Below are positions 24,414 through 60,498 of a DNA stretch of 64,000 bases, piece after piece (the stretch's first letter is position 1; each line of letters opens with the position of its first letter). The translations under genes and the position numbers were made by a program. The notes under the pieces were generated by a model. The model did not search any database. It was given only the letters and a program-made list of their open reading frames with translations, and was not told the DNA's origin. This stretch comes from Salinibacterium sp. SWN167 (GTDB lineage Bacteria; Actinomycetota; Actinomycetes; Actinomycetales; Microbacteriaceae), in NCBI RefSeq assembly GCF_015864665.1, contig NZ_JADYWU010000001.1, forward strand, positions 1,798,001-1,862,000. Direction: 5' to 3'.

Positions 24414-27400
24414 TTAGCGGAAATCTCGAGATCGGGTGCGGGGGAGCCCCGAAAGCGGTTCAAAGCGGTCTGCAACAACATTAATCACACCATCAACGGA
24501 GCGTTCAAGAACACCACGAACGATGAGCGCTGCACTGTCACGAGCCACTCGGCGGTAGCGCCCCCACACTCCAACACTGCAAATCACGTTGATGAGACCT
24601 GTCTCATCTTCAATGTTCATGAAGGTGATTCCACTGGCCGTTGCGGGACGTTGACGATGCGTCACAACACCCCCAATTTCGATACGACGCCCGGATTCAG
24701 CGGTCATCAGGTCGGTTGCGCTCAGGATTCCCCGCTTGCTCAGAGTCTCCCTGAGGTGGGCGACCGGGTGGCTTGCCGGCGAAATTCCCGTTGACCAGAG
24801 GTCGGCCATCAGATCATCCACCGGGCTCGACATTGAAAAGAGCGGCGGCTGAACGGTGACCACACTGTGGGGGAGATACTCCTCGCGATCCTGTGCCGCG
24901 TTACCCGCATTCCACATCGCTTCGCGACGAGTGAGTTCGAGAGAGTCGAAAGTTCCCGCTGCTGCCAGAGCCTCCAATTGTTTCGTCGTGAGACCTACCC
25001 GCCGCACCAGATCATTCATCGACACGAACTCGCCGGACTCCCGTGCGGCCACAATTTTCTCGGCAACCACTGTTCCGACGCCTTTTACTTCATCAAAACC
25101 CAGGCGCACGGCAAAGGCTCCATCGCGGCGGTGGTCGTCGGTATCGAAGGGTGCTGAACGATCGAACGGCCCTACAGGAGGCTGTTCAGCATCGAGGCAA
25201 CGATCAGTGCCCGTAGCCGCGATTCCATCGCCCAATGCTTCCAATCCGGCGAAGACCCCCGAACGTTGGATGTCGGGACCAAGCACGACCACACCGTGAC
25301 GGCGGGCATCCGCCACCAATGATTGCGGCGAATAGAAACCCATCGGTTGCGCCCGCATGAGCGCAGCCAAGAACGCCGCGGGGTAGTGGAGCCGAACCCA
25401 CGCGCTGGCATACACGAGCAGCCCGAAGCTCAAGGCGTGGCTCTCAGCAAAGCCGAACCCGGCAAAGGCTTGGATACTTTCGTAAATTCGGTCGGCATCC
25501 GCGTCAACGATGCCGTTGCTGGCCATTCCCGCATAGAGCTTGGTGCGCAACTTGTCGATGCGTTCAATTCCTCGCTTCGAGCCCATTGCGCGCCGTAGAA
25601 GATCGGCGTCGTCAGCCGAACATCCGCCAACCGCAACCGCAATTTGCATGAGTTGCTCTTGAAAAATGGGAACGCCGAGGGTGCGCTCGAGAGGCTCCTT
25701 GAGATTGGGGTGCAGATAGGTGATCGGTTCGGCACCCATTTTGCGACGAACGTAGGGGTGCACGGCACCGCCCTGAATCGGGCCGGGGCGCACGAGCGCA
25801 ATCTCGACAACGAGATGGTAAAACTCGCGTGGCTGAAGGCGCGGCAGCAACCCCATCTGAGCACGGCTCTCGACTTGGAAGACGCCGATGGCATCCGCTC
25901 GACACAGTTGGTCATAGACGCCCTGCTCTTCGGCAGGGATGGTCGCAAGATCCCACCGTTCGCCGAGGGCCTCATCAACGAGATCGAAACTGTATTGCAT
26001 CGCCGACAGGATGCCGAGGCCCAACAGGTCGAACTTGACCAGCCCCATCCAGGCGCAGTCGTCTTTATCCCACTGCACCACAGTGCGTTTATCTTTGCGT
26101 GCGTGCTCAATCGGCACGACCTCGCCGACCGGCCGCTGGGTGAGCACCATGCCACCCGAGTGGATACCGAGGTGCCGCGGAAATTTCATCACCTGTTGGG
26201 CCAGATCCAACACAGAATCGGGGATGTCATGGTCAACTCCCGAAACGTCGGAACCCCAGCGCTCCATCTGTTTCGACCACGCATCTTGCTGCCCTGGGCT
26301 ATGCCCGAGAGCTTTCGCCATATCGCGCACGGCAAACCGGGGACGGTACTGAATCACGTTCGCGACCTGCGCCGCATTCTCGCGCCCATACCGTTCGAAT
26401 ACGTATTGGATAACTTCTTCACGACGCTCGGAGTCGAAGTCGACATCGATGTCTGGCTCCTCTTCTCGCATCGCTGAGATGAAGCGCTCGAAAGGGAGCT
26501 TGTAACGCAGAGGGTCAACCGCCGTGATCTTGAGCAGGTAACAGACCACAGAGCTGGCGGCCGACCCGCGCCCTTGACAGAGAATGCCGCGCCCGCGCGC
26601 AAAGGCCACAATGTCGTGCACGATCAGAAAGTAGCCAGCAAAGTTTTTCTCTTCGATGACATCGAGTTCTCGCTGAATGCGCGCCCGGTTGGCTTCTGAC
26701 AGTTCAATAGAGCGATCTTTCACTCCTGCCCACGTCAGCTCTCGCAACCAGCTCGCCGGGGTGTGCCCTTCGGGGACAGCCTGATCGGGAAGTGCCGGCT
26801 TCGCCTGCCTCAACTCGAACGCAGCCTCGTCCGCGATCTCGACGGTGTTAGCAACTGCTGCGGGATAGCGCGCAAAAAGCACAGCCATCTCAGCCCCCGA
26901 ACGCAAATGGGCTGTGCCCGCAGCCGGAAGCCACCCGTCCATCTCGTCGAGACTGCGACGAGCACGCACCGCTGAGATCGCTGAATGCAAGTGATGCTGG
27001 CGAGGGGTCGCATAGTGAGCGTTGGACGTCGCGACCACCCGCAATCCGCGTTCGGCGGCAAGCAAGACAAGAGCATCGTTGAGAGCAGAGTCGAGCGGGT
27101 AACCATGGTCGAAGAGTTCAACGATCACCGCTTCCGCCCCGAACAGTTCACTGAGCCGATCAAGCTCTGCCCCTGCCGCACGCATGGATTCCGTCGTGGG
27201 AGCGCCATTACCCTCGGAGCCGCTGAGGGCGCGACGAACCGCTCCCTTGCGGCAGCCCGTGAGCACAAACCAGTGTCCGGAGGCCAGCTCAGCGAGTTCA
27301 TCAAGGTCGTAACGCGGGCGACCTTTTTCGCCACCGGCTAATTGGGCTCGCGTAATAGCCAAGGCAAGACGGTGGTAGCCCTCCTCTTTTCGAGCAAGCA

Positions 27401-27857
27401 CGAGAAGATGATCGCCTTCGGGATCGGCTATGCCGTTTTGCGGCCCGCTCAATCCGAGCGAGAGCTCGGCGCCAAACAGGGTGCGTAATCCCAACTCGGC
27501 GGCTGCTTCGGCCATGCGCACAATGCCATAGAGCCCGTCGTGATCGGTGAGGGCGAGGGCGCTCAGCCCCAGCCGCGCTGCTTCTTCTGCGAGCTTTTCG
27601 GGCATGCTCGCGCCATCGAGAAAGCTGAAACTCGAATGGGCGTGCAGCTCTGCATACGGCACGACCGTGGCGGCCAGGCTCGCTTCTGACGCCACGTCAT
27701 TCGGCGGCGCGCTGGGAGCGATGTAGGGGGCGCGCTTGCTGGAGACGAGCGACATGGCTCGACCGTCACCGGCTTCACCAATCGGCGTGACGGTACCAAA
27801 ACCCGACAGCGTACGCTCCAACTGCCGCCACGGGATGGGAGGGTTAGACCACGCCAT
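24414..27857 (-). CDS. dnaE2: Error-prone DNA polymerase DnaE2 (ImuC)
   Basis: Second, mutagenic C-family polymerase of 1147 aa. The N-terminal PHP domain has AELHAHSSFSFLDGAS and ALALTDHDGLYG. The polymerase core has GRGSAASSVVCY and the catalytic acids of EEPDIDVDFDSERREE. A C-terminal OB fold lies around EIGGVVTHRQRP. It opens with MAWSNPPIPWRQLERTL, an N-terminus typical of actinobacterial DnaE2 rather than replicative DnaE1. The ATG overlaps the imuB stop as TAATG. It is the last gene of the SOS operon imuA'-imuB-dnaE2. Confidence 0.96.
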   Translation of the reverse strand: MAWSNPPIPWRQLERTLSGFGTVTPIGEAGDGRAMSLVSSKRAPYIAPSAPPNDVASEASLAATVVPYAELHAHSSFSFLDGASMPEKLAEEAARLGLSALALTDHDGLYGIVRMAEAAAELGLRTLFGAELSLGLSGPQNGIADPEGDHLLVLARKEEGYHRLALAITRAQLAGGEKGRPRYDLDELAELASGHWFVLTGCRKGAVRRALSGSEGNGAPTTESMRAAGAELDRLSELFGAEAVIVELFDHGYPLDSALNDALVLLAAERGLRVVATSNAHYATPRQHHLHSAISAVRARRSLDEMDGWLPAAGTAHLRSGAEMAVLFARYPAAVANTVEIADEAAFELRQAKPALPDQAVPEGHTPASWLRELTWAGVKDRSIELSEANRARIQRELDVIEEKNFAGYFLIVHDIVAFARGRGILCQGRGSAASSVVCYLLKITAVDPLRYKLPFERFISAMREEEPDIDVDFDSERREEVIQYVFERYGRENAAQVANVIQYRPRFAVRDMAKALGHSPGQQDAWSKQMERWGSDVSGVDHDIPDSVLDLAQQVMKFPRHLGIHSGGMVLTQRPVGEVVPIEHARKDKRTVVQWDKDDCAWMGLVKFDLLGLGILSAMQYSFDLVDEALGERWDLATIPAEEQGVYDQLCRADAIGVFQVESRAQMGLLPRLQPREFYHLVVEIALVRPGPIQGGAVHPYVRRKMGAEPITYLHPNLKEPLERTLGVPIFQEQLMQIAVAVGGCSADDADLLRRAMGSKRGIERIDKLRTKLYAGMASNGIVDADADRIYESIQAFAGFGFAESHALSFGLLVYASAWVRLHYPAAFLAALMRAQPMGFYSPQSLVADARRHGVVVLGPDIQRSGVFAGLEALGDGIAATGTDRCLDAEQPPVGPFDRSAPFDTDDHRRDGAFAVRLGFDEVKGVGTVVAEKIVAARESGEFVSMNDLVRRVGLTTKQLEALAAAGTFDSLELTRREAMWNAGNAAQDREEYLPHSVVTVQPPLFSMSSPVDDLMADLWSTGISPASHPVAHLRETLSKRGILSATDLMTAESGRRIEIGGVVTHRQRPATASGITFMNIEDETGLINVICSVGVWGRYRRVARDSAALIVRGVLERSVDGVINVVADRFEPLSGLPRTRSRDFR

Positions 27858-29470
27858 TAGTCATACCTCGCTTCAGCCCACCAACCGCCGTCATCGAGCA
27901 CCAACAGCCACGCGCATCCGGTGTCGTCAACAGCCTGAAAGCGCCACGAACGCCCGGGGGATTCTGCCTCCCACCATCGTTCGGCAAGTGGCCAAGGCCC
28001 TGCCCACGCAGTGAGAGTGCGTGAACGTGAATCGCTTGTCGAAAACTGGGCAGGCGGTGCAGCAACGTGGCCACGCGCATCCACCGACACTGTGGTGCCG
28101 TCCTCGGCAAACACGTGCACGGCGTGACGGCTGGAGAAGACTGTTCCCGGCAGCGGAGCGGGGAGAACGCCCGGCCAGGGGCGTTGTGGCGATCGCTCAG
28201 TGACGCTGCGGTCGCCCCACGCGGTGAACCGTTGACGGGACTGCAGAGTGCGCCCGCCCTCGATCGTCGGCACAAGAACACCACCGTGGCCAAGCATGCT
28301 TTGCACTCGAGAAAGCCCGTGATGGATGCGCGGCTCTAGCCCTGACCCCCAGAGCCCGGTTTCGTGATGGCCAATTTCGTCGACTGTTTCGGGCACAATG
28401 CGTACCCGAGAGATACCCGAGCTGAGCCCCGCATCGATGAGGTTAGAGCCCTGCACTTGCCAGCGCACGCGATCGACAACATCGCTGGCGCTAAACGACC
28501 GGGGATGCAGCCACACCCGTTCGGCAACCTCACCCGATTCCGAATCAAGTTCGATTCGAATCGCGGTCGCCACCAGTTGAGCCTGCACAAGACCGGCCAC
28601 AAAATCGTCGGCCCGGCTGCGGATGCCGAAAGCAACCTGATCTACTCGATCAAGGGCGGGCTCAAAGTCGATCACGACGTCAAGGTCGAGCGGGGGAGTG
28701 CGCGCGACGAAAGCCTGCGGATCCCGACCGCTGGCGAGAGCGTGCAATCGGCCGCCGAGTTCCCCAAAACGAGTGCGGACATCGAGGCGGTCGAGGTGGG
28801 CAAACTCGCCAAGAGTGGAGATGCCGAGCTTCATCAGCAGAGTCACGATAGGCGGTTCCTCTAACACAGCGATCGGCAGTGGTGCCAGAAATTCGGCAGA
28901 GCTGCCAGCGGGCACCATCCGCACTCTTCCCCCTCGCGAACGAGGGTCTGCGGCACTAGTGCTGCGTGCAGCATGAACCGCAGTGAAGAGAGCATCAGCG
29001 ATACCTACCCGAGCATCGGATGCCGCAATCTCGTTGACGCGATCAATAACAGTCAACGCTGCCGCTTTTTCTCCGCCGTAATACAGGGCAGCACCTCGCA
29101 CACGAACGGCACACATGCCGGGTCGCAACACTTGCACTCCGGGAATCAATTCTTCGATCCCCGCGAGCACCGGTTCGAATGCTCGGCTGTCGAGGGCAGG
29201 ATCGTAAGGTCGGTCGATGATCCCGGGGAACCGCGACTGCGCCTCCCGCAGCCGTAACCCGCGAGTGACGCCCTCAGCGCGAGCGGACGCTGCTGCCGCA
29301 AAGACAAGCCCTTTCTCCACGAGGACAAGCGGGGCATCCGCTGGAAGCTTTTCGTGTTGTCGCGCAGCAACCACGGGCCAATCTGGGGCCCAAAGGACCA
29401 GAACTCGGGGGAGTGACTCGGGAAGCGCTCCTGCATCTGCCCGTGACCCCTGCGACGACTCGGCTTTCAT
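27857..29470 (-). CDS. imuB: ImuB: catalytically degenerate Y-family polymerase
   Basis: Adaptor of 537 aa that links DnaE2 to the sliding clamp during mutagenic lesion bypass. The Y-family fold is recognisable (GLRLREAQSRFPG, LLMKLGISTLGEFAHL), but the polymerase acids are lost: the SIDEA region reads AVRVRGAALYYGG and the first motif is VLVLWAPDWPVVAA. Loss of catalysis is the defining trait of ImuB. The segment ETGLWGSG may be the clamp-binding site. The start overlaps the imuA' stop by 4 nt. Confidence 0.94.
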   Translation of the reverse strand: MKAESSQGSRADAGALPESLPRVLVLWAPDWPVVAARQHEKLPADAPLVLVEKGLVFAAAASARAEGVTRGLRLREAQSRFPGIIDRPYDPALDSRAFEPVLAGIEELIPGVQVLRPGMCAVRVRGAALYYGGEKAAALTVIDRVNEIAASDARVGIADALFTAVHAARSTSAADPRSRGGRVRMVPAGSSAEFLAPLPIAVLEEPPIVTLLMKLGISTLGEFAHLDRLDVRTRFGELGGRLHALASGRDPQAFVARTPPLDLDVVIDFEPALDRVDQVAFGIRSRADDFVAGLVQAQLVATAIRIELDSESGEVAERVWLHPRSFSASDVVDRVRWQVQGSNLIDAGLSSGISRVRIVPETVDEIGHHETGLWGSGLEPRIHHGLSRVQSMLGHGGVLVPTIEGGRTLQSRQRFTAWGDRSVTERSPQRPWPGVLPAPLPGTVFSSRHAVHVFAEDGTTVSVDARGHVAAPPAQFSTSDSRSRTLTAWAGPWPLAERWWEAESPGRSWRFQAVDDTGCAWLLVLDDGGWWAEARYD

Positions 29471-30234
29471 GCCGAGACCTTGTGAGGCAAAGCCGTCAGC
29501 GGCGCAGGAGCCATCTCCGCCGCACCATGAGCACGTATTTGTTCAGAAGAATCGGGTAGCCAGATGCGTGCACTGCGTGGTCGCCCCGCATTTTTGCTCG
29601 TCACCGTGACGGTCACTTCACGCGCAGCCAAATGCCCATGACCGTTGCCAATACCGTGCCACTGGCTCTCGCCCAGTGACACCATCGCTTCGCTCTGCGG
29701 CCACGACCCCACCATGAGCAGTGTTGATTTGCGTTGCCGGAGCCGCGACGCCAATCTGGCCACTGCAGAATCGGATGCCCGCGTGGGCGGGCGGGCGACG
29801 ACAACATCTACGACATCAGCAATCGCTGCCGTCACCGCGAGCCATTGATCGCCCGGATGCGGCACCAGCACGAGTCGTTCAAGATCGACCCCGAACCGCT
29901 GGGCGGCTTCAATCCCGAACTCGGGCACTCCTACGACAGCGCACCACGATCCTGCCGCGGAGGGAGCAGCGAGGAGCGTCATAAGGAGCATCGCCGAGCT
30001 GTCAACCGAATAAACGCTGCCCTGCTGCAAACCGCCGCCCGGGAGCAATGAGGCAATGGCCGGATGTGTGGGGATGAGCGTAGAACTTAACGTGCGGGAC
30101 TGCATTTGGCTGATGCGGGACTGCAGTTCAGCGACGCGTTCTGCAGCCGTCAGCGTTGCACCGCTAGAGGCCTCACGCCCAGCCGAAAACTCTTCAGCGG
30201 TCGCTGAAGCGGCAGAGGCAGATACAGGGGACAC
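29467..30234 (-). CDS. imuA: ImuA' accessory mutagenesis protein
   Basis: RecA-like accessory factor of 255 aa from the first gene of the mutasome operon. ALPTHP-type block IPTHPAIASLLPGGGLQQGS marks the family start, with a degenerate RecA-like core (VVVARPPTRASDSAVARLAS). The frame is open to 30396, but a LexA box lies across 30245-30260. A -35 TTGACA and -10 GAATAT place the transcript start on GTG 30234. I therefore take this GTG as a leaderless start and reject the ATG codons at 30282 and 30252. Confidence 0.87.
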   Translation of the reverse strand: MSPVSASAASATAEEFSAGREASSGATLTAAERVAELQSRISQMQSRTLSSTLIPTHPAIASLLPGGGLQQGSVYSVDSSAMLLMTLLAAPSAAGSWCAVVGVPEFGIEAAQRFGVDLERLVLVPHPGDQWLAVTAAIADVVDVVVARPPTRASDSAVARLASRLRQRKSTLLMVGSWPQSEAMVSLGESQWHGIGNGHGHLAAREVTVTVTSKNAGRPRSARIWLPDSSEQIRAHGAAEMAPAPLTALPHKVSA

Positions 30235-30240
30235 CTGTTC

Positions 30241-30269
30241 ATATTCGAACATATGTTCGAGTGTGTCAA
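30241..30269 (-). promoter_or_regulatory. LexA-controlled leaderless promoter of imuA'-imuB-dnaE2
   Basis: Read leftward: TTGACA (30269-30264), a 17-bp spacer, GAATAT (30246-30241), six bases, GTG 30234. The spacer contains the palindrome TCGAACATATGTTCGA (30245-30260), a perfect match to the actinobacterial SOS box TCGAAC-N4-GTTCGA. A bound LexA would block RNA polymerase directly. Confidence 0.9.
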
Positions 30270-30318
30270 TTGCGTACGACATCCATCGGCGTGTCTTTGC
30301 GATGTCGTTGCCATGTTC

Positions 30319-30330: not shown

Positions 30331-31341
30331 GTGAGTTATATCGAAGCAGTAGATCTCAAGAAGACGTATACGCCTAAGGGTGCAGCCCCCGTGCATGCCC
30401 TCGACGGTCTCAATCTGGAGGTTCCGCAGGGCACAGTAACGGCTCTGCTTGGCCCGAATGGTGCGGGCAAGACGACCACTGTCAAGGTGCTGACTACCCT
30501 CATCCGCCCCGATTCAGGTTCAGCGACTATCAACGGTGTCGATGTCATCGCTTCCCCCGAGCGCATCCGCCCCATGATTGGTGTCTCCGGGCAGTATGCC
30601 GCTGTCGATGAGAACCTCACTGGTTTTGAGAATCTCGACATGGTCGGTCGGCTCTATCACCTCGGTGCCAAGCAATCTCGCGAGCGGGCACGCGAACTCA
30701 TCACCCTCTTCGACCTCACCGAAGCGCAAAACCGTCCCGTCAAAGGGTTCTCCGGCGGCATGCGTCGCCGCATTGACCTTGCCGGTGCCCTTGTTATGCG
30801 CCCACCGGTGCTCTTTCTCGACGAGCCAACCACCGGTCTCGACCCGCGCAGCCGCATTGGCATGTGGGATGTCATTACAACGCTCGTGGGGGAGGGCACC
30901 ACTGTGCTTCTCACCACCCAGTACCTCGAAGAGGCCGACCAGCTTGCCGACAGCATTTCGGTCATCGACGACGGCAAAGTCATTGCCCAGGGCACCTCCG
31001 ATGAGCTCAAAGCATCCATCGGCGGTCAGCGAGTTGAAGTGAGCCTCGTGTCGAAGGATGATGCGGCCGCCGCCCACGAGATCCTCACTCGTTTCGGCAG
31101 CACCGAACCTGCCGTGAGTCTCGACGGCCGCGGCCTAACCGTAAACGCGGAAGATGCTCCCGCCGCGCTGCAGCTGATTCTCACGGAGTTCGCGAGCCGC
31201 GGCATCCAGCTCTACGACGCCGGAATGCGTCGTCCCACTCTCGATGACGTGTTCTTGAAGCTCACCGGCCACACGGCAAGCGCCGACGAAACCGACACTG
31301 ATACGACGGATGCAGCACCAGCACAGAAGGCACAGAAATGA
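30331..31341 (+). CDS. Daunorubicin-resistance (DrrA)-type ABC transporter ATPase
   Basis: ATPase of 336 aa for a two-gene ABC-2 exporter. Walker A GPNGAGKTT, signature FSGGMRRRIDLAG, Walker B LFLDEPTTGLDPRSR, switch TTQYLEEAD. The C-terminal 100 residues are the DUF4162-like extension seen in DrrA proteins (MRRPTLDDVFLKLTG), followed by a Thr/Asp-rich tail. The stop overlaps the permease start as ATGA. Substrate unknown; drug or lipid export is the usual family role. Confidence 0.93.
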   Translation: MSYIEAVDLKKTYTPKGAAPVHALDGLNLEVPQGTVTALLGPNGAGKTTTVKVLTTLIRPDSGSATINGVDVIASPERIRPMIGVSGQYAAVDENLTGFENLDMVGRLYHLGAKQSRERARELITLFDLTEAQNRPVKGFSGGMRRRIDLAGALVMRPPVLFLDEPTTGLDPRSRIGMWDVITTLVGEGTTVLLTTQYLEEADQLADSISVIDDGKVIAQGTSDELKASIGGQRVEVSLVSKDDAAAAHEILTRFGSTEPAVSLDGRGLTVNAEDAPAALQLILTEFASRGIQLYDAGMRRPTLDDVFLKLTGHTASADETDTDTTDAAPAQKAQK

Positions 31342-32183
31342 CCGCCACAGCACCCACGACAGCCCCAACCCCGACCGCCACGTCATCGGTCATGAACTGG
31401 TTGAATGACGGTTGGATCACCACCCGTCGCAACCTCATCAAGATCAAACGCGTGCCCGACATCTTGGTCTTCACGACATTGCAGCCGATCATGTTTGTGC
31501 TGCTCTTCACCTATGTCTACGCCGGCGTGATCGATATTCCCGGCAGCACGTACAAAGAGTTCATCATGGCCGGCATTTTTGCTCAGACGGTGGTGTTCGG
31601 GTCAACCTATTCGGGCTCGGCGATGGCTCAAGACCTCAAAGACGGCATCATCGATCGCTTCCGCACTTTGCCGATGAGCCCCTCCGCGGTCTTAGTCGGT
31701 CGCACCAACGGTGATCTACTCATCAACTCGCTTTCGATGATCGTCATGATGGCAACAGGCCTGATCGTCGGATGGCGCATCAAGTCAAGTCCATTCGAAG
31801 CGATCGCTGCGATCGCTCTGCTCCTGCTCTTTGCTTACGCACTCTCCTGGGTGATGGCGTTTATTGGAATGAGCGTGCGCAGCCCAGAGGTCATTAACAA
31901 CGTCTCGTTCTTGGTGCTCTTTCCACTGACATTCATCTCCAACGCCTTCGTCCCCGCCGAAACCCTTCCCGGACCACTGCGCACCTTCGCTGAGTTGAAT
32001 CCCGTGTCAGCCCTCGTGCAGGCCGCCCGCGAGTTGTTCGGCAACACCCCCGCTGGGGCCGTGCAGTCCGATGTGTGGTCGCAGCAGCACCCCGTTCTTA
32101 CGGTGCTGATCGGCATAGTGGTGATGCTCGCCATCTTCGTTCCGCTGGCGATACGCAAGTTCGCGAGCATCAGCACGCGCTGA
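31338..32183 (+). CDS. DrrB-type ABC-2 permease
   Basis: Membrane component of 281 aa for the preceding ATPase. After a short Thr/Ala/Pro-rich tail come six hydrophobic helices with the ABC-2 signature region around NNVSFLVLFPLTFISNAFVP and NPVSALVQAARELFGN. Translationally coupled to the ATPase by a 4-nt overlap. Exports an unknown substrate. Confidence 0.93.
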   Translation: MTATAPTTAPTPTATSSVMNWLNDGWITTRRNLIKIKRVPDILVFTTLQPIMFVLLFTYVYAGVIDIPGSTYKEFIMAGIFAQTVVFGSTYSGSAMAQDLKDGIIDRFRTLPMSPSAVLVGRTNGDLLINSLSMIVMMATGLIVGWRIKSSPFEAIAAIALLLLFAYALSWVMAFIGMSVRSPEVINNVSFLVLFPLTFISNAFVPAETLPGPLRTFAELNPVSALVQAARELFGNTPAGAVQSDVWSQQHPVLTVLIGIVVMLAIFVPLAIRKFASISTR

Positions 32184-58529: not shown

Positions 58530-59513
58530 GTGCCAACACCGAAAGTTCCCAACGAAGAACGGCTCTTTAGCCTCGTTTTGGCGTTGCTCTCCACTGAAAA
58601 TGGGCTCACAAAGAGTGAGATCCTGTCGACGGTGCAGGGCTATCGCCAACGCTTCGTACACTCGGGGGATAACGCGAACCTTGAGCGCCAGTTTGAGCGC
58701 GATAAGGACGACATTCGCGAGCTCGGGGTTCCGCTCGAAACCATCGAGCCTCCCGAGCAGGCGGGTAATAATCAGAATCTTCGCTACCGCATCCCTCGAG
58801 TCGATTACGAACTTCCCGAAGACATCAAGTTTTCGGCGGAGGAGTCAACTTTGCTCGGTCTCGCCGCAATGGTGTGGCGAGAGGGTTCCCTCTCTGAGGG
58901 TTCGCGTCGCGCCATGGTCAAACTCCGGTCCTTGGGCATCGAAACGGCGGAACCTGTTCTCAGCTACGCGCCACAGTTGCGGGTGCGCGACGAATCATTT
59001 GAGCCACTGCGCGAAGCAATGGATCGTCGCGTGCTGGTCAGCTTCGAATATTTGAAGCCGGGGGAGCAGTCCTCCACCACTCGACTGGTGGCACCGCTTG
59101 CGCTCGTGCAACACCAGGGCCGCTGGCACCTGTACGCCAAAGACCCGCACACGGAACAGTTCAAGACTTTCCTGTTGCGACGCATTGTGAGCGACATCCA
59201 GCGCACTAAAAAAACTTTTGACTACGTCACGGATGATGCTGCCGCTCAAGCCTTGTCAGGGCTTGAGAAGGTCTGGCAATCCAACGTCGCGATGTTGCGG
59301 GTGGAACCCGGCACCGACGCTGCAACGCGTCTGGGTAAGCGACGCGGAGCAGTAATGCATCCGGATTGCATGCTCGAGGTCAACTTCACTGACGTCAACA
59401 TCATGGCTGACGAACTCGCGAGTTTTGGCCCGGAGGTCGTGGCGGTGTCTCCGCCCCATCTGCGGTCCGCAGTGATCGAGCGACTCACGAGAACGGTGGC
59501 AGACCATGGCTAA
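58530..59513 (+). CDS. pafB: PafB WYL-domain transcription factor
   Basis: First half of the PafBC heterodimer, which activates DNA-damage genes in mycobacteria in parallel with LexA. It is 327 aa: an N-terminal winged helix (ERLFSLVLALLSTENGLTKSEI), a WYL domain in the middle (VSFEYLKPG, GRWHLYAKD) and the WYL C-terminal extension. GTG 58530 lies 7 nt after TAGGAT, so it may be leaderless. It overlaps pafC by 8 nt. Candidate target promoters lie in this window. Confidence 0.92.
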   Translation: MPTPKVPNEERLFSLVLALLSTENGLTKSEILSTVQGYRQRFVHSGDNANLERQFERDKDDIRELGVPLETIEPPEQAGNNQNLRYRIPRVDYELPEDIKFSAEESTLLGLAAMVWREGSLSEGSRRAMVKLRSLGIETAEPVLSYAPQLRVRDESFEPLREAMDRRVLVSFEYLKPGEQSSTTRLVAPLALVQHQGRWHLYAKDPHTEQFKTFLLRRIVSDIQRTKKTFDYVTDDAAAQALSGLEKVWQSNVAMLRVEPGTDAATRLGKRRGAVMHPDCMLEVNFTDVNIMADELASFGPEVVAVSPPHLRSAVIERLTRTVADHG

Positions 59514-60498
59514 GAAGATCCCACCGCTGCGCGCTCAAGACAAGCTGGTCTTTTTGCTCGCTCTCGTGCCGTACCTCATGGACCGTGACCGCGTCAGCGT
59601 CGCCGAGACCGCCCATCACTTTGGCGTGCCCGAGCAACAGATTCGCGACGCTGTGCGGCTCATCGCCGTCTCGGGTATCCCTGGAGATACCGCCACGTAT
59701 CAGGCGGGCGATCTTTTCGATATCGCATGGGATGACTTCGAAGACAACGATCAAATCGTGTTAACCCACCTCGTCGCCATCGATGACACACCGCGTTTTT
59801 CTGCGCGCGAAGCTTCTGCCCTTATCGCGGGTTTGCAATACCTCTCGAGCCTGCCTGAGCATGCTGACCGTGCAGCTATCGCGACTCTTACCTCGAAGCT
59901 GTCACGGGGCGCGTCTGCGCAACCAACGGCTGTCGCGGTGGAGTCGAACGCTCTCGATGAGACGCTTGCCCTCATCCGCGAGTCAGTTGCGGCGGGAACC
60001 CAAATCGAGTTCGACTATCGCAACTCACGAGGCGAGTCTGAACGTCGCCGGATTGACCCGCTCCGGGTTGAGTCGGTGGATGCGGACTGGTACGTGCGCG
60101 GCTGGTGCCATTCACGCGAGGATGTGCGCACGTTCCGCATGGACCGCATTTCCCACCCGGCCATGACAACAGAGGCCATCACGCACACCGCTGGTGACGT
60201 GAACCTGCCAGAAACACTGTTCGACGCCTCCGCCGAGGATATCGAGGTCACCGTTGAGGTGGCTCGGAGCGCCATCGGCTTGCTGGGCGACTATGTACCC
60301 GAACACGCGATTCTTGTTCCCGCGGATGATCGCGTTCGCACCGTGGTCCGTGTTCCTCATTTTCACGGCCTCAAGCGACTGATCGCGGGGCTTCCCGGAG
60401 TCGTGACTGTCGTGGCTCCCGACGAAGCACGCCGCGCAGTGGCCTGCTGGGCACAAGCCGGCGCCGATCTTTACGCAGAACCACGACAGGTGTTGTGA
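59506..60498 (+). CDS. pafC: PafC WYL-domain transcription factor
   Basis: Partner of PafB, 330 aa, same architecture: a winged helix (RDRVSVAETAHHFGVPEQQI) followed by the WYL domain with IEFDYRNSRGESERRRIDP and DWYVRGWCHSREDVRTF. It overlaps pafB by 8 nt and is followed by a small membrane protein gene that overlaps its stop, so all are co-transcribed. Confidence 0.92.
   Translation: MAKKIPPLRAQDKLVFLLALVPYLMDRDRVSVAETAHHFGVPEQQIRDAVRLIAVSGIPGDTATYQAGDLFDIAWDDFEDNDQIVLTHLVAIDDTPRFSAREASALIAGLQYLSSLPEHADRAAIATLTSKLSRGASAQPTAVAVESNALDETLALIRESVAAGTQIEFDYRNSRGESERRRIDPLRVESVDADWYVRGWCHSREDVRTFRMDRISHPAMTTEAITHTAGDVNLPETLFDASAEDIEVTVEVARSAIGLLGDYVPEHAILVPADDRVRTVVRVPHFHGLKRLIAGLPGVVTVVAPDEARRAVACWAQAGADLYAEPRQVL

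Follow-up and report, generated by a model that had tools for sequence, protein, structure and literature searches.

Two putative promoters interlocked on a single LexA operator ahead of the imuA'-imuB-dnaE2 operon of Salinibacterium sp. SWN167

In the control region of the error-prone repair operon imuA'-imuB-dnaE2 of this marine Salinibacterium, two promoters appear to interlock on one LexA operator so that LexA would gate both, a reading that we favour with moderate confidence. The 50-base stretch that holds them probably reads two damage alarms. One promoter (P2) is of the sigma-A type, with the operator filling its spacer, and would give a leaderless mRNA from GTG 30234; the other (P1) is of the PafBC type, and its proposed -10 shares its final base with the start of the operator. 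The sequence of the window (the whole 64-kb stretch of DNA that was analysed) and comparison with relatives show which elements are present, that their spacing is fixed and that they are conserved; from these we infer the binding of LexA and PafBC, the transcription starts and the logic of induction. The types of component, namely an SOS box over a promoter, a PafBC element and a leaderless start, are already known. Their combination in an interlocked layout on one operator is new as far as the literature consulted shows, and an earlier description of a fused PafBC/LexA arrangement may exist. The mutasome genes determine the extent of mutation in an actinobacterium after damage. LexA lying over nested promoters would make the SOS and PafBC responses a gate in which LexA leaves first, rather than parallel inputs.

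The operon, promoter P2 and its LexA operator

The imuA' gene (29467..30234, minus strand, 255 aa) matched the NCBIfam model NF058630 (ImuA') with an E value of 8e-57. A 4-nt overlap joins the start of imuB (27857..29470, minus strand; Pfam IMS) to the imuA' stop, and the start of dnaE2 (24414..27857, minus strand; NCBIfam PRK05672), which encodes an error-prone DNA polymerase, overlaps the imuB stop. Since homologues of the three genes run in this order with overlapping ends, the view of the first-pass annotation that the promoter heads the whole mutasome operon is sound. A divergent pair of genes for a DrrA/DrrB-type ABC transporter (30331-32183, plus strand) starts within ~100 bp of imuA'. 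The named relatives closest to the source genome belong to Salinibacterium.

The minus strand from 30282 to 30232 reads ATGTCGTACGCAATTGACACACTCGAACATATGTTCGAATATGAACAGGTG. Direct reading confirmed the geometry and coordinates that had been proposed for P2: TTGACA as the -35 (30264..30269), a 17-bp spacer (30247-30263), GAATAT as the -10 (30241..30246), the six bases GAACAG (30235-30240) and then GTG at 30234, all on the minus strand. The exact pattern TTGACA-N17-GAATAT had a single match in the window, which was the imuA' copy. Among 143 imuA' loci, the -35 was TTGACA in 96 and TTGACT in 23, and the -10 was GAATAT in 61 and GAACAT in 25, the rest being mostly other forms of GANNNT.

The operator, TCGAACATATGTTCGA (30245..30260, minus strand), is kept across the Microbacteriaceae. 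It is, as first described, a perfect TCGAAC-N4-GTTCGA palindrome within the P2 spacer, and the GA with which it ends also begins the GAATAT hexamer. A pattern search found this palindrome once in the window, at 30245-30260, and three times in the 3.0 Mb genome, against an inferred expectation of ~0.2 for 12 fixed bases; because it is unique in the window and in such excess over expectation, its presence at imuA' is not attributed to chance. Both lexA and recA were found in the SWN167 genome, and a genome search located a LexA box with one mismatch upstream of recA. The site is thus a predicted LexA operator with the features expected in actinobacteria: a palindrome in a promoter, lexA and recA in the same genome, and an operator-like site at an SOS gene. 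LexA would be expected to bind at 30245-30260.

Elsewhere in the genome, a further perfect LexA box (C1:1961284-1961299; L152) is followed after 24 bases by an ORF that carries a radical-SAM-like CLHQCTYC motif. Another site, ATGTCAGTGTTCGAACATATATTCGA (C1:1377847-1377872; L312, L153), precedes a small ORF (82 aa); there a LexA box with one mismatch overlaps TATATT, the -10 of a PafBC-type element.

The upstream regions of imuA' from the genus and the family were aligned with position 0 at the first T of the LexA box, giving 113 loci. The comparison of imuA' starts among relatives, which the first-pass annotation had suggested as a check, showed ATG or GTG at position 26, the site of GTG 30234, in 101/113 loci. 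This start codon lies exactly 10 nt past the LexA box, and the TTG at -9 and the T at 19 were nearly fixed. A leaderless start is expected where the -10 lies 6-7 nt from the start codon without a Shine-Dalgarno sequence; here the gap was 6 nt in the same 101 loci, and inspection by eye found no Shine-Dalgarno-like sequence suitably spaced ahead of GTG 30234. The conserved 6-nt gap points to a leaderless start at 30234. Furthermore, the geometry TTG-N6-box-N3-T-N6-RTG was present in 216 of the 398 Microbacteriaceae genomes sampled, representing 54/85 genera, whereas its reversed control gave 0/398. The placement of a LexA operator between the -35 and -10 of a putatively leaderless imuA' promoter, as originally put forward, is well supported by these counts.

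The PafBC-type element and the candidate promoter P1

RecA-NDp/PafBC promoters have the form tTGTCRgtg-8 nt-TannnT (PMC5656591), and PafB engages the -26 motif when PafBC adapts sigma A (PMC11804915). Upstream of the operator, ATGTCGTAC (30274..30282, minus strand) is a candidate variant of this PafBC/RecA-NDp-type -26 element (consensus tTGTCRgtg), with a TGTC that is conserved in position. CACACT (30260..30265, minus strand), the proposed -10 of P1, follows at the canonical 8 nt and overlaps the LexA box by one base, its last T. The likeness to the known promoters lies in the TGTCR element and the 8-nt spacing to the -10; in their details, the window instead has TGTCGTAC and CACACT. The former agrees with the TGTCR of TGTCRGTG but not with its GTG part and is weaker than the copies of most relatives, while the latter has C where TANNNT has its first T, at an exact 8-nt spacing. 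A search for the strict consensus TGTCRGNG fused to the box, tolerating one mismatch, did not match the window, and P1 was consequently scored below P2.

TGTC at exactly 21 bases before the LexA box was found in 56 of the 113 aligned imuA' loci and in 87/143 of the enlarged set, where the usual form of the element among loci with TGTC was ATGTCGGTGGC, with CANNNT eight bases beyond it. The commonest 8-mer at this place was TGTCGGTG, and most relatives have TGTCGGTG, TGTCGGCG or TGTCGGAC; the form in the window occurs in seven family loci and also in other fused modules. When kinship was ignored, A at the second position of the P1 -10 accompanied TGTC in 87/87 loci, compared with 14/56 of those without it, and the T at the sixth position was invariant in loci with the element. 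This conserved A, at -4, also belongs to TTGACA. In a paired test on a tree, ~4 of six supported independent pairs pointed in the same direction and none in the opposite one (median p 0.125), which by itself is not significant, the test being underpowered at six pairs. In two loci (L043 and L046), TTGACA is replaced by TTGCTA, and the P1 hexamer is a full TANNNT (TATCGT and TAACCT, respectively).

The arrangement recurs outside the family. Of 18 TGTCRG elements that precede imuA' in other families of the order, 17 had NANNNT at exactly N8, and in 10 the T of the -10 was fused to the LexA box. A fused PafBC/LexA module was detected in 60/394 Actinomycetes genomes, and its control pattern had 0 matches in the same 394. 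Within the SWN167 genome, WTGTCRGWG-N8-NANNNT precedes recA, uvrB (the name rests on its N-terminal sequence) and a LysM-like gene divergent from lexA. Homologues of the WYL regulators pafB (58530..59513, plus strand; WYL domain, matching the regulator chains of PDB 9fnd/7p5x and PafBC of 6sj9) and pafC (59506..60498, plus strand; WYL domain, matching PafBC of 6sj9 and PafC of 7p5x) lie in the same window, 28 kb from the imuA' promoter. The presence or absence of PafB was uninformative as a test of the element, PafB being found in 146/150 family genomes. The relatives, recA and uvrB of the genome and the nearby pafB/pafC together back a second, PafBC-type candidate promoter, which in SWN167 may be weak or decaying, given its poor element match and the C for T in its -10.

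It is possible, though rather unlikely in our judgement, that a single sigma-A promoter with the LexA wedge and the GTG 30234 start accounts for the region, the upstream ATGTC being a relic or serving another use and PafBC playing no part here. P2 and the start position are indeed the best conserved features, TGTC is missing from about 40% of the loci in the family (56/143), which still keep P2, and the element of the window matches poorly beyond TGTCR. Against such an account, TGTC, the N8 spacing and the A in the second -10 do not vary across 87 loci, the spacing recurs outside the family, and TGTCGTAC is found again in other fused modules. The one-promoter LexA model of the first-pass annotation accordingly holds for the wedge and the leaderless start but is incomplete, having missed the candidate PafBC-type P1.

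Start codons upstream of GTG 30234

Both ATG 30252 and ATG 30282 are in frame with GTG 30234. The former (30250..30252, minus strand) lies inside the operator and is a possible second leaderless start, from P1, that would add an MFEYEQ extension. It had been argued that the operator fixes the imuA' start because this ATG lies within it. The argument fails, since fused modules elsewhere start genes at that very codon: in other Actinomycetes, 12 of the 18 fused modules examined outside the window have an ORF beginning there (418 to at least 502 aa long), and 9 of 10 tested proteins from such ORFs were DUF222. Among Actinomycetes loci L324-L353, DUF222 genes commonly have their start codon within a LexA box to which a PafBC-type -10 is fused, so that the proteins begin with MFD or MFE. 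These DUF222 (13E12-type) modules resemble the present one in the fusion of a PafBC-type -10 with an SOS box and in the start codon site in the box; they differ in that their genes start inside the box, unlike GTG 30234, which lies beyond it. This corrects a rule of thumb in annotation: an ATG covered by a LexA box stays eligible as a start, because genes with fused PafBC/LexA modules often begin there.

The frame from 30252 to 30234 was open in 87/87 family loci with the element, compared with 29/56 without it, and a stop codon stood between the two positions in 20/56 element-less loci. A test on independent pairs was underpowered (six pairs, median p 0.25). When closures were counted along branches of a fast tree by parsimony, 12 were found, none of them on element-bearing branches (P ~0.002; 0.014 for stop codons alone). 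The association of an open frame with the PafBC element is suggestive but not decisive, as the region is also constrained at the DNA level. Tentatively, and with more doubt than belief, we propose that a PafBC transcript starting at ATG 30252 would yield an MFEYEQ-extended ImuA' and the housekeeping transcript from GTG 30234 the short form, both under one operator. If two forms of ImuA' were made, the form present would report which damage pathway had fired.

Translation of imuA' from ATG 30252 alone, on P1 transcripts and with GTG 30234 as an internal codon, is very improbable. The open frame in all loci with TGTC would fit it, as would the use of this codon as the start of DUF222 genes in fused modules and its possible use for imuA' outside the family, where the frame from the box ATG continues into imuA' in four loci (L187, L188, L191 and L194). 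However, the ATG or GTG at the 30234 position is nearly invariant in the family and lies exactly 6 nt past the -10. Moreover, since stop codons often break the longer frame in element-less loci, the start there is at the 30234 position (position 26 of the alignment).

The first-pass annotation had held that conserved residues between 30235 and 30282 would count against a start at 30234. The stretch is indeed conserved, but because of the PafBC-type element, the second -10 and the operator; codon position 3 was not clearly more variable than positions 1 and 2 across it, and no clear coding signature was seen. A start at ATG 30282 or further upstream, which would place the LexA box within the coding sequence, was rejected as hardly credible: gene callers may choose ATG 30282, as simple gene finders did, and its frame is open in loci with TGTC, but that codon is the edge of the ATGTCGTAC element and such starts depend on the element and fail in loci that lack it (a start codon there in only 3/47 in-frame element-less loci, stops between in 8/47), and codon position 3 does not vary the most.

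Proposed regulation and related systems

In the favoured two-promoter arrangement, LexA bound at 30260-30245 in undamaged cells would lie over the spacer of P2 as well as the end of the -10 of P1, blocking both promoters. Upon damage, cleavage of LexA would free P2 (TTGACA-17-GAATAT) to fire from GTG 30234. With LexA gone, PafBC activated by ssDNA could add P1 (ATGTCGTAC-N8-CACACT), whose start point would be inside the operator.

Mycobacteria are known to place the mutasome under LexA as well as PafBC (Adefisayo 2021, as cited in PMC10421592). The likeness to that imuA'-imuB/dnaE2 system lies in the genes and in both regulators. In SWN167, by contrast, the ends of imuA', imuB and dnaE2 overlap and the three make up a single operon, and ~50 bp accommodate the PafBC-type -10, a TTGACA promoter, the SOS box and the start codon in interlocked form. 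The lexA gene of M. tuberculosis is leaderless by experiment (PMC2897130) and is likewise an SOS gene in which the starts of transcription and translation coincide, whereas for imuA' the leaderless start is predicted from the conserved gap.

Further upstream, GACACGCCG (30287..30295, minus strand) is a conserved element resembling the GACAC core of WhiA/WhiB-type sites; the WhiB2 motif is cGACACGc (PMC9040748). ACACGCC at -33..-35 relative to the LexA box was found in ~50/87 loci with TGTC and in 3/56 without it (shuffled expectation 0.4), was preceded by G in 49 of 50 loci, and was seen in L016 and its relatives. A tie between the upstream GACACGCC and the divergent drrA was considered and rejected, as a DrrA-like neighbour occurred in 11 of the 94 relatives' imuA' loci with enough flank, compared with 50/87 for the element. 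In Curtobacterium and its relatives (L111, L114 and L267-L296), a second LexA-like box precedes the PafBC element, and the DnaA-box-like TTGTCCAC(A) stands directly before ATGTCGG in the same loci.
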